Part shown: positions 5,667 to 28,029 of the stretch, piece after piece | Position numbering within the stretch: the first letter of the stretch is position 1 | Layout: each line of letters begins with the position of its first letter | DNA from: a virus | IMG/VR virus record: IMGVR_UViG_3300042339_000674 | Location: 1 to 34,794 of that record | Direction: 5' to 3' (one strand) | DNA: 34,794 bases | Translations under genes and position numbers: made by a program | Notes under the pieces: model-generated | The model's input: only the letters and a program-made list of their open reading frames with translations | The model's database searches: none | What the model was told of the DNA's origin: nothing

Positions 5667-5984
5667 ATGGCTGATATCATAATTAATAAAGAGATGCTAT
5701 TGGAGCAAATGGGTGATAAAGCAGAAGAATTCATGGAATGTCTTCGTATAGTTGAAGATATAATTGAAAATCCTGATCACTATTTAGGAATGCAGGCTGT
5801 CAAGTATGCTAATATATTAGCAGCGTATAGAACACTAATGATTGTAAAATCGCAAGCTTTTAAAAGAAAGTCTGCTGTTATGAATGATCAAGACAAATTT
5901 GTTAATGACATATGGAAAACAATGTATGAAGCATTAGCGGAAAACATAAATGCTCTAAAACTCGCTGGGAAAGGCGGATATTAA
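5667..5984 (+). CDS. Hypothetical protein, 105 residues, mainly helical
   Basis: A 105-residue protein without a recognised motif. It looks largely helical (EMLLEQMGDKAEEFMECLRI, then a long segment around YANILAAYRTLMIVKSQAFK). AGGAAGAAATA precedes its ATG. It lies between a DUF1599-like gene and the Cas4-like nuclease gene, with a TAATG overlap to the latter, so it may assist one of them; nothing in the sequence proves it. Confidence 0.7.
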   Translation: MADIIINKEMLLEQMGDKAEEFMECLRIVEDIIENPDHYLGMQAVKYANILAAYRTLMIVKSQAFKRKSAVMNDQDKFVNDIWKTMYEALAENINALKLAGKGGY

Positions 5985-6712
5985 TGAAATCATTGAAGGT
6001 ACTTAAACAACCAAAGAAGATTGCAGTTGTTGCTGAGGAATTTTCAGACGCAGATTTAGTAGATAGTCTATCCAAAGCAATTGATGATTCATTGGCAGAG
6101 CGTAATCAGCCTGAATTTAAAAAAGTGAATGGGTTTCACCCAAGCTATACGAATCAATGCCCGAGATACTGGAATTACTTGTTTACTGGCGTGAGCGTTA
6201 CGCCAGACTTCAGACCGCAGACTTATCGTATCTTTGATAATGGTCATGCAGTTCACGACAGGATTTATAAATACTTTAGAGACATGGGCATCCTTGTTCA
6301 AGAGGAAATCCCAGTATCGTATTCATCACCACCAATTGAAGGCACAGCTGACGGTATTATCAATTGGTACGGGGAAAAATTGATTGAATTAAAATCAATT
6401 AGCTCCGAGGGCTTTCATTACAGGAAGCTTCATAACAAACCAAAGGATGAGCACTATAGGCAAGCGCAAATCTATATGGAATGTTTGAATCTTGATAGCG
6501 GTTTTGTTATTTATGAATGTAAGAATAATCAAGAAATTCTGCCTATTTTTATAAAAAAAGATCAAGACTATATTGATAAATTATTTAAGAAATATAGAAC
6601 TATTTATGGGAGTTACACAAGCGGTGACATCCCCGACAGACCATACAAGAGAACATCTAAGCATTGTTCTGATTGTAATGTTGCTGCTTTATGCTGGGGA
6701 GAAAGTGGTTAA
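5984..6712 (+). CDS. Cas4-like PD-(D/E)XK exonuclease with Fe-S cysteines
   Basis: A 242-residue protein. The nuclease core has GTADGII (residues 120-126, D123), then EKLIELKS (E135 and K137) and the RQAQIYM helix (QxxxY at 161-164 region), the typical RecB/Cas4 order. Four cysteines stand where Cas4 and AddB hold a 4Fe-4S cluster: C59 (NQCPR) and C228, C231, C237 (CSDCNVAALC). It would resect or trim DNA ends for recombination-dependent replication together with the RecA-like protein. No CRISPR array or other cas gene is in the window, so the Cas4 name marks the fold and not an adaptation role. Confidence 0.82.
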   Translation: MKSLKVLKQPKKIAVVAEEFSDADLVDSLSKAIDDSLAERNQPEFKKVNGFHPSYTNQCPRYWNYLFTGVSVTPDFRPQTYRIFDNGHAVHDRIYKYFRDMGILVQEEIPVSYSSPPIEGTADGIINWYGEKLIELKSISSEGFHYRKLHNKPKDEHYRQAQIYMECLNLDSGFVIYECKNNQEILPIFIKKDQDYIDKLFKKYRTIYGSYTSGDIPDRPYKRTSKHCSDCNVAALCWGESG

Positions 6713-20296: not shown

Positions 20297-20612
20297 TGAA
20301 AATAAGGAATCATGGAGAGATGAAGCAAATTGTATAAAAGCTCCTTTAAATATATTTTTCCCTGAAGATGAAACTGGTAGCACCAGTAAGAGAAAAATTG
20401 ATAGAGCGAAAATAATATGTGAAAATTGTTCAGTCCAACATAAATGCTTAATATATTCTTTAAATGAAAATATTGATCATGGAGTTTGGGGTGGACTTTC
20501 ATCCAGGGAAAGAAAAGCATTGAAGAAAAATGTTGATGCAATGGATTATACAAGCACAGTTTATTTATTGTTAAATAAAACAATCCCAATCATAAGTAAG
20601 AGAAAGAAATAG
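20289..20612 (+). CDS. whiB: WhiB-family Fe-S transcription factor
   Basis: A 107-residue protein with the four cluster cysteines of WhiB, C15, C44, C47 and C53 (spacing C-x28-C-x2-C-x5-C, in IICENCSVQHKC), followed by the G(V/I)WGG turn as GVWGG (65-69) and a basic ERKALKK segment that binds DNA. WhiB proteins hold a 4Fe-4S cluster and bind the primary sigma factor of Actinobacteria. Phage copies can act on host promoters. I choose ATG 20289, with GAGG 7 bases upstream, because it fits the family length. The C-terminal extension (after residue 80) is not typical. Confidence 0.9.
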   Translation: MIDENKESWRDEANCIKAPLNIFFPEDETGSTSKRKIDRAKIICENCSVQHKCLIYSLNENIDHGVWGGLSSRERKALKKNVDAMDYTSTVYLLLNKTIPIISKRKK

Positions 20613-20621
20613 GAGAAAGCC

Positions 20622-21560
20622 ATGAACAATCAAACGAGAGTGGAAGAGATAGTAGAGGAAGTTTTAACCAGCAAAGATGTTAAATCTATGCATATCCCCA
20701 TTAAAACCAATAGCCAGCAAGAAATGTTTGGAGCATCATTTAACAGTGGTCATGTTTCAAAGATATCTTCTTTGGTTAAAGTATCTGATCTGGTAATTGA
20801 TTACACATACCAGCGTCAGCCGCTTATTAAGAAAGTAAATAAGATTGCAAAGAACTTTGACTCAGATATTCTTGGAGTCATTATTTGCTCAATGCGTGAA
20901 GATGGATCATTGGCTGTAATTGATGGTAGCCATAGAGTTCATGCTATGCGTGAAAAAGGAATGAATGATTACTCAGTAAATGCTCTTATCTACTTTGATT
21001 TAGATATCAAAGACGAAGCAAGAATATTTGCGATGCTTAATCAGGAACACACAAAGCCAAATACAACAGATATCTTTAAAGCTGGAATTGTTTCTGGTGA
21101 TGAAGAAACGATTGCAATTAATAAAATCCTTAACGGTTTGGGTTTGATTATTGGAGTTGGACCTGGTGATAATAAGGTTCGTGCTATTTCTACAATTAGG
21201 CGTGTTTATCGTAATGCTGGAGATAAAGTATTGCGTGACACATTGTATACGATTAAATCAGCTTATGGTGACTCATCTAGCACAATGCGTGATGTTTTGA
21301 TTTCTGCTGTTGCAATTATCTATAATCGTTATGGTGCAAAAGTTGAAGTATCTCGTATGGTTACTACATTGCAAAAGTTTGGTAATCCAAATACGCTTAT
21401 TGCAAATGCAAAATCAATTGGTGTAAATGCAAGTTCTGTTACAGCATCTGCTTTACCATTTGTTATTGTAAATGCTTATAATCAAAGATTAACAACAAAT
21501 CGCCTTAGCGATTACCCAATGAATTTACTTGCTCAGCAAGTATGGGTTTCAATTAAATAA
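20622..21560 (+). CDS. ParB/sulfiredoxin-fold protein (DUF6551-like)
   Basis: A 312-residue protein. VKVSDLVIDYTYQRQPLIKK (53-72 region) followed by GSLAVIDGSHRVHAMREKG (residues 96-114) is the ParB-like nucleotide-binding signature, here with DGSHR at 101-105. A helical C-terminal part (from about 150) has no partition-type HTH I can name. Relatives in phages are annotated as DUF6551 or ParB-like. It may bind CTP or ATP; partition, transcription control or an enzyme role are all open. AGGAG precedes the ATG, and a hairpin follows the stop. Confidence 0.75.
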   Translation: MNNQTRVEEIVEEVLTSKDVKSMHIPIKTNSQQEMFGASFNSGHVSKISSLVKVSDLVIDYTYQRQPLIKKVNKIAKNFDSDILGVIICSMREDGSLAVIDGSHRVHAMREKGMNDYSVNALIYFDLDIKDEARIFAMLNQEHTKPNTTDIFKAGIVSGDEETIAINKILNGLGLIIGVGPGDNKVRAISTIRRVYRNAGDKVLRDTLYTIKSAYGDSSSTMRDVLISAVAIIYNRYGAKVEVSRMVTTLQKFGNPNTLIANAKSIGVNASSVTASALPFVIVNAYNQRLTTNRLSDYPMNLLAQQVWVSIK

Positions 21561-26861: not shown

Positions 26862-26877
26862 AAGAAAGGGGTATCCA

Positions 26878-27348
26878 ATGGGATACTATGTAGACACAAC
26901 GGAAGCAGATATCTTTATTTCTAAAGATAAGTTTGAGGATTGCTATAAAGCAATGTGCAAGCTTAACGAAAGAGATGATCTAAAAAGTGGTGGTAGTTGG
27001 GGTGCAGGAATATCTGCAGATCAACCGAAACCTGAAGGAATGAGTTATCATCCAGGTAAATGGTTTAGTTGGATGGATGCTAATTATCCAGAAACATGTA
27101 AAAGTATGGAAGATATTTTGCATGCACTTGGTTTTGAAAATATTGATTATGATGAAGAAGGCAATCTGATAGATCTATGCTATAGCAGTAAGATTGGTTC
27201 AGAGGATCACTTCTTTCAATCAATTGCACCTTTTGTTAAAGAAGGTAGTTATATCAATTGGTCAGGTGAAGATAATTCTATATGGCAATGGTATTTTAAT
27301 GGTAAGGAAATGGTAACTAAATCAGCTCATATAACTTGGGTTGAATAA
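26878..27348 (+). CDS. Conserved phage protein of unknown function, 156 residues
   Basis: A 156-residue protein. KWFSWMDANYPETCKSMEDI near residue 62, ALGFE, then SKIGSEDHFFQSIAPFVKEG and INWSGEDNSIWQWYF are a pattern I recall from many phages and some plasmids, without known function. GAAAGGGG is its ribosome binding site. A tRNA gene follows 6 bases after the stop. Confidence 0.78.
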   Translation: MGYYVDTTEADIFISKDKFEDCYKAMCKLNERDDLKSGGSWGAGISADQPKPEGMSYHPGKWFSWMDANYPETCKSMEDILHALGFENIDYDEEGNLIDLCYSSKIGSEDHFFQSIAPFVKEGSYINWSGEDNSIWQWYFNGKEMVTKSAHITWVE

Positions 27349-27354
27349 GTTAAT

Positions 27355-27428
27355 GTATCCGTAGCTCAATTGGATAGAGCAAAACACTTCTAATGTTTAG
27401 GTTGTAGGTTCAAGTCCTATCGGATACG
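27355..27428 (+). tRNA. tRNA-Arg (anticodon UCU)
   Basis: A full cloverleaf: acceptor GTATCCG/CGGATAC, D stem GCTC/GAGC, anticodon stem AAACA/TGTTT with loop CTTCTAA (anticodon TCT at its centre), and T arm with GTAGG-TTCAAGT-CCTAT. The discriminator is G 27428 and CCA is not encoded. It reads AGA (and AGG), the Arg codons preferred in the AT-rich island. It lies 3 bases before the structured RNA. Confidence 0.95.
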
Positions 27429-27431
27429 CTA

Positions 27432-27516
27432 AGTGTTAGACTAAGGCATTGTTATCCCCTTTCAAAATGCTTATGTAAGTAATTGATATCCCCGTATCTT
27501 ATTTATGTCTAACACT
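27432..27516 (+). ncRNA. Candidate small RNA: three-way junction with two C-rich loops
   Basis: P1 is a perfect 10-base pair stem (27432-27441 with 27507-27516). Inside, P2 pairs 27444-27450 with 27466-27472 (one G-U) and shows a 15-base loop with ATCCCCTTTC; P3 pairs 27476-27482 with 27499-27505, then GATA/TATC after a 2-base bulge, closing on the loop TCCCCG. So 85 bases fold into one compact form, and both loops show ATCCCC or TCCCC. Exposed C-rich loops are typical of small RNAs that pair with ribosome binding sites. It may be cut from the tRNA transcript. No promoter of its own is seen. Confidence 0.5.
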
Positions 27517-27521
27517 ATTTT

Positions 27522-27677
27522 AAATATGGTATAAAAAAGAATCAGGCTAAAGCTAATCCTTTCTGCTTAAGAGAAATATGCGTCTGTCTATTACATGGGA
27601 GTAGAAGATGTCAAAATGTCGTAGTTGTAGTTATCCGACATAATATTTTTTGCCTGGTTCTTTTTTATACCATATTT
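27522..27677 (+). repeat. 156-bp element with 26-bp inverted arms
   Basis: Arms at 27522-27547 and 27652-27677 are complementary at 26 of 26 positions if the single T-G pair (27542/27657) is allowed as in RNA. Inside are smaller stems: ATGTCG/CGACAT (27616-27621 with 27636-27641) and TTTCT/AGAAA (27560-27564 with 27572-27576). No frame is present. It is either a large folded RNA, perhaps continuing the unit of the tRNA and the small RNA, or a MITE-like mobile element with terminal inverted repeats; no clear target duplication is visible. Confidence 0.75.
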
Positions 27678-27705: not shown

Positions 27706-28029
27706 GTGAAATCAGTATTAATAAAGTCAAACAATTCAATCAACATTGTTGAAATGGACAAAAAATATTCACTTGAACAACTTCAAAAAGAAGTTGGTGG
27801 TTGGATTGAAGTAGTTAAGTTGAATGGCAAAATGTCAATGTATGTAAATGAAGAAGGGCTAATGAGGCAATTTAAAATTAATCCAATAGCAACTTCTTTG
27901 TATTTTCAATATACGGGAATTAATACCCCAATTGTTGGAGATGTAATTATAACTGGAAGGAGTAGTAACGGAAGTCAAATAAATCTTAAAGATGAATGTG
28001 TTGAAGAAATCATGAGTGCGCTTAAATAA
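27706..28029 (+). CDS. DUF3846 family protein, 107 residues
   Basis: A 107-residue protein. YSLEQLQKEVGGWIEVVKLN near residue 20, then MYVNEEGLMRQFKINPIATS and TPIVGDVIITGR, match the DUF3846 pattern (LQ..VGG.IE.V, NEEG...NP.A, IVGDV). These small phage proteins have no known role. The start codon is GTG, with AAGGAG 7 bases upstream. Confidence 0.78.
   Translation: MKSVLIKSNNSINIVEMDKKYSLEQLQKEVGGWIEVVKLNGKMSMYVNEEGLMRQFKINPIATSLYFQYTGINTPIVGDVIITGRSSNGSQINLKDECVEEIMSALK

Follow-up and report, generated by a model that had tools for sequence, protein, structure and literature searches.

A tRNA-linked phage family of three-way-junction RNAs with a conserved loop that looks like the 16S anti-Shine-Dalgarno tail

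The window analysed here, a phage sequence of 34,794 nucleotides (IMG/VR record IMGVR_UViG_3300042339_000674), carries a compact structured segment directly after a tRNA gene, raising the question of whether this DNA specifies a small RNA with a role of its own and what its C-rich loops might recognise. No open reading frame of at least 60 aa was found between 27348 and 27706. The features of this interval and its neighbours are as follows.

26878-27348, plus strand: gene X (phrog_38862, function unassigned), a conserved gene adjoining the RNA island on its upstream side
27355-27428, plus strand: tRNA-Arg gene (anticodon UCU), without an encoded CCA (ARAGORN; Rfam RF00005, 70.3 bits)
27432-27516, plus strand: RNA1, a compact three-way-junction RNA of 85 nt, supported by fold z-score, homologues and compensatory changes
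27432-27441/27507-27516: closing stem of RNA1, a perfect 10 bp
27444-27450/27466-27472: hairpin P2 of RNA1, 7 bp
27456-27463, plus strand: core of the RNA1 P2 loop, CCCCUUUC, conserved and anti-Shine-Dalgarno-like
27475-27506, plus strand: hairpin P3 of RNA1, with the second C-rich loop at 27490-27493
27522-27677, plus strand: RNA2, a larger branched RNA of 156 nt immediately downstream of RNA1, closed by a 26-bp stem
27558-27563, plus strand: core of the RNA2 P2 loop, CCUUUC, conserved (invariant in 12 of 12 aligned RNA2 sequences)
27706-28029, plus strand: DUF3846 gene (PF12957, Pfam E 2.3e-17) with a GTG start, on the downstream side of RNA2

The closing stem and two internal hairpins of RNA1, already recognised in a preliminary description of this DNA, were borne out by the predicted fold (minimum free energy -22.4 kcal/mol, z -4.64), with none of 200 shuffles being as stable. 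The 3' end of tRNA-Arg(UCU) falls at 27428 according to Rfam or at 27429 according to ARAGORN, which puts the first base of the RNA1 stem 3 or 2 bases further on; the former agrees with the 3-base spacing first reported. Model R2 identified RNA1 homologues in four IMG/VR records (L235, L243, L244 and L245), all of which belong to its training set. L235 is 97% identical over the region, and in the relatives, too, the RNA directly adjoins the 3' side of tRNA-Arg(UCU), present either as a gene or as its decayed relic. The tRNA preceding the homologue in L245 (4462-4532) is degenerate or suppressor-like, with a TTA (stop) anticodon called by ARAGORN. Compensatory changes, the test on which the preliminary description had staked the RNA, are present: L243-L245 carry several of them with pairing retained, and the stems stay paired despite changed sequence (AGUGUUAGAC/GUCUAACACU versus AAGCAUCAGG/CCUGAUGCUU). 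A further tRNA-Arg(UCU) gene, in L248, is followed by the same three-way-junction shape with different stems and the loop UUCCCCCUUUC; context and loop place this RNA with RNA1, and model R2 has no match there.

The two loops of RNA1 differ in their conservation. TCCCC does occur in both loops of the window, as first described, but conservation is confined to the P2 loop: CCCUUUC is invariant there among the homologues, whereas P3 retains its hairpin and carries an unrelated loop sequence in L243, L244 and L245. On the plus strand of the window, CCCCTTTC occurs solely in the RNA1 P2 loop. Without conservation of the second C-rich loop, an analogy to RsaE, with its pair of UCCCC seeds, fails; the conserved P2 core, CCUUUC, looks more like the 16S anti-Shine-Dalgarno tail than like a UCCCC seed.

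The preliminary description was right but understated, since a second and stronger RNA, absent from it, lies directly downstream. RNA2 has a far more stable predicted fold than RNA1 (-53.8 kcal/mol, z -8.28), again unmatched by any of 200 shuffles. In an alignment of 12 sequences (A5), from which covariance model R1 was built, 94% of cells are paired and 23 of 45 pairs show changes on both sides, whereas shuffles averaged 11.6 such pairs and slid controls never exceeded 6; the covariation score was 0.426 against 0.173. Outside its training set R1 matched L246 (E 2e-9), L247 (E 1e-7) and G024 (E 9e-10), and on the whole records of 18 phages it gave a strong match once per phage. CCUUUC stays invariant while the flanking P2 stem covaries, and it is also present in the distant members L246, L247 and G024, with the loop core of L247 and G024 taking the variant form CUCCUUUC, likewise part of the 16S tail. 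Conservation extends beyond the loop to the sequence AAG-NRAAAUAUGC.

Searching viral contigs by gene X, the tRNA end and the RNA2 core recovered related islands in about 20 contigs. The usual order is an SLT-domain gene, gene X, RNAs, tRNA-Arg(UCU), RNA1 and/or RNA2, and the DUF3846 gene. Two further three-way-junction RNAs, both upstream of tRNA-Arg in L236-type phages, belong to such islands.

L236, 4573-4658: alpha
L236, 4665-4742: beta

Both are also found in L016 and L049, and beta alone in L239, L241 and L242; neither carries CCUUUC. After alpha and beta there is a conserved element of ~73 nt (AACAGGTTTGGTTAAAGCCTGG...) with no clear fold.

As judged by their covariance models, RNA1 and RNA2 are homologous, with the model of each class detecting members of the other: R1 matches RNA1 of G008 (E 0.0115), and RNA2 elements from other phages are picked up by R2 (E 4e-4 to 1e-3). 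Common to both are a closing stem, a two-base junction and a P2 hairpin with the loop (A/U)NCCUUUC. Across 171 kb of loci, R2 gave 23 matches at E<=0.2, every one of them inside an island and alpha and beta among them; on whole records it gave a few weak matches off the islands (E 0.03-0.7). When RNA1, RNA2, alpha and beta were aligned jointly, in an alignment fitted to the model, 92.5% of cells were paired and 21 of 23 pairs showed changes on both sides. The stem pairs therefore survive compensatory change, which is the general mark of a structured non-coding RNA. Taken together, the computed structure, covariation, relatedness, island linkage and loop invariance identify RNA1 and RNA2 as related members of a previously uncatalogued actinophage RNA family.

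Searches for known relatives agree with this. An Rfam 15 scan of the window returned only tRNA at the gathering threshold; at a lax threshold (E<=10) all non-tRNA matches lay far under their own thresholds and revealed no relative, and the GOLLD and ROOL models had no match in the Rfam scans of the window. Against annotated phages, blastn of the tRNA/RNA region matched tRNA genes alone, and no match was obtained with the RNA2 regions of L241 and L246. In the Arthrobacter phages Rizwana and MellowYellow, gene X is present and RNA2 was not found. Matches to the pattern GCTAAG-N-TAAG-N-CCCTTTC in viral contigs, and to the RNA2 pattern in genome contigs (judged as a set), were mostly due to chance, while a pattern aimed at relatives of L246 and L247, set one base out of register, matched coding DNA only. 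A TATATA-AACA motif after the RNAs was considered as a phage promoter and rejected, there being no enrichment elsewhere. A pseudoknot between CCUUUC and the GAAA of P3 was rejected by eye, being inconsistent among members and requiring bases that form P3.

The likely host bears on what the loop could resemble. A WhiB-family gene is a marker of actinophages (PMC10202952), and one was found in the window and in 22 of the 25 records tested.

20313-20522: WhiB-family gene

We therefore read these phages as actinophages; the marker points to actinobacterial hosts and is the single basis for that assignment. The window has a GC content of 34% despite this actinophage marker, and the RNA region is AT-rich. 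The window also encodes a DUF6551/ParB-like protein with a weak DndB match (20622-21560) and a Cas4-like exonuclease (5984-6712). The invariant loop core CCUUUC is part of the actinobacterial 16S tail, that is, of the anti-Shine-Dalgarno tail, and an exact copy of the tail sequence GGATCACCTCCTTTCT was present in 32 of the 60 genomes sampled from the actinobacterial phylum.

We tentatively favour, at somewhat less than an even chance, a mechanism in which the CCUUUC loop imitates the 16S anti-Shine-Dalgarno tail. RNA1 and RNA2 would be expressed together with tRNA-Arg(UCU) as one island, flanked by gene X on one side and the DUF3846 gene on the other. They would be excised from a transcript that spans gene X and the tRNA, and processing at the 3' end of the tRNA would release the 5' end of RNA1. 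Release in this way is plausible given the adjacency, although no tRNA adjoins the RNA2 relatives of L247 and G024. Each RNA is predicted to form a three-way junction whose long closing stem would protect its ends and whose second hairpin would display the CCUUUC core. The loop, by mimicking the tail of the host 16S rRNA (CCUCCUUUCU), would pair with the Shine-Dalgarno sequences of phage and/or host mRNAs and so block initiation. The nearest candidate target is the Shine-Dalgarno sequence of gene X (AGAAAGGGG).

26864-26871, plus strand: gene X Shine-Dalgarno sequence GAAAGGGG, candidate target, with 8-nt complementarity to the P2 loop of RNA1

The 8 complementary nucleotides are contiguous. 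Predicted duplexes of the RNA1 P2 loop are stronger with start regions (mean -6.9 kcal/mol over 56 of them) than with random windows (mean -3.6 kcal/mol). Because a purine-rich Shine-Dalgarno sequence pairs with any anti-Shine-Dalgarno-like loop, such complementarity is weak evidence. Of the 13 records that carry a CCUUUC RNA, 11 have GAAAGG ahead of gene X, as against none of the 8 that lack such an RNA, a comparison confounded by kinship, and RNA loop and gene X Shine-Dalgarno sequence show no clear covariation. Since pairing at start regions is general and the gene X contrast is confounded, we place Shine-Dalgarno pairing no higher than a tentative preference and retain protein-binding and cis-acting roles beside it.

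Some bacterial small RNAs offer a precedent: RsaE and IsrR expose C-rich single-stranded loops against Shine-Dalgarno regions (PMC9217828, PMC9410917), and the phage RNAs may act likewise. The likeness to these C-rich-seed RNAs of Firmicutes (RsaE/RoxS, IsrR), in line with the comparison to Gram-positive small RNAs in the preliminary description, holds for one conserved C-rich loop complementary to ribosome-binding sites; the second C-rich loop is not kept, and the conserved core is CCUUUC rather than a duplicated UCCCC. Unlike RsaE/RoxS and IsrR, the RNAs described here are phage-borne, tRNA-linked and closed into a three-way junction; they belong to another host phylum, have no Rfam match and have a candidate target only.

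There are also precedents among phages. The stable RNAs C and D of T4 are small RNAs cut from the transcript of a phage tRNA cluster, the origin that we propose here, in a different phage group and compared by description. The pRNA of phi29 is a phage RNA built on a three-way junction; in contrast to it, the present RNAs show no linkage to packaging genes and no match in the Rfam scans.

The invariant loop could equally well be a protein-binding site. Loop and junction might bind a phage or host protein, or the RNAs might oligomerise in the manner of GOLLD and ROOL, structured phage RNAs with no known function that likewise lie near tRNA genes (PMC12286853). The conservation of RNA2 outside its loop is in keeping with such protein-binding or scaffold roles, as are islands holding several three-way-junction RNAs of one topology, some lacking CCUUUC. 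GOLLD, however, often exceeds 800 nt and adopts elaborate folds, whereas the RNAs here, at 85-170 nt, are much smaller than GOLLD or ROOL and lack a large ornate fold, and what they have in common in best-conserved form is not a junction motif but a loop complementary to Shine-Dalgarno sequences. We regard this reading as unlikely, though it survives best among the alternatives.

A cis-acting role, in which RNA2 or a lone RNA1 controls the DUF3846 gene as a leader or ends the tRNA transcript as a terminator, seems to us less probable still. The last RNA does lie directly before the DUF3846 gene in most members, often with a U run after its closing stem. However, another gene follows in L246, L247 and G024, and in L045 and L046 the RNAs are directly preceded by the SLT gene instead of gene X; this variable order, together with the missing tRNA in L247 and G024, argues for a role of the RNAs themselves and against a leader of a single gene. 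In addition, RNA1 of the window precedes another RNA and not a gene, a terminator would need nothing like so large or so conserved a fold, and a terminator scan listed none at this site.

It is also conceivable, though in our view distinctly improbable, that the RNAs serve only the processing or stability of the tRNA-Arg transcript and have no independent role. Their direct adjacency to tRNA-Arg fits this idea, as does a CUAAG trailer kept after the tRNA even where a different hairpin comes next (L015, L022 and L026), but the loop core is kept while the stems change, and RNA2-type elements stand without an adjoining tRNA in two records. Other structures also occur behind tRNA genes. In L251, tRNA-Arg(UCU) (5977-6049) precedes another long hairpin (-28 kcal/mol) with a U run behind it, and CCUUUC is absent; in L021, a 260-kb viral contig, the structure behind a tRNA (1527 onward) is unrelated and has AAGCGATACCGCT...AGCGGTATCGTTT as its closing sequences. 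Finally, chance folding of AT-rich intergenic DNA, for which the low GC content might speak, is refuted by the strong covariation and the shuffles and can be given practically no weight.

In summary, this locus adds an RNA family supported by covariation and missing from Rfam 15, whose loop predicts pairing with Shine-Dalgarno sequences; its carriers are actinophages known here from metagenomes alone. The broader picture, a tRNA-linked actinophage island of paralogous three-way-junction RNAs in which one branch serves as a 16S anti-Shine-Dalgarno decoy regulating phage or host translation initiation during infection, is a possible but doubtful one. If true, it would add a mechanism directed at translation to the tRNA islands of phages.
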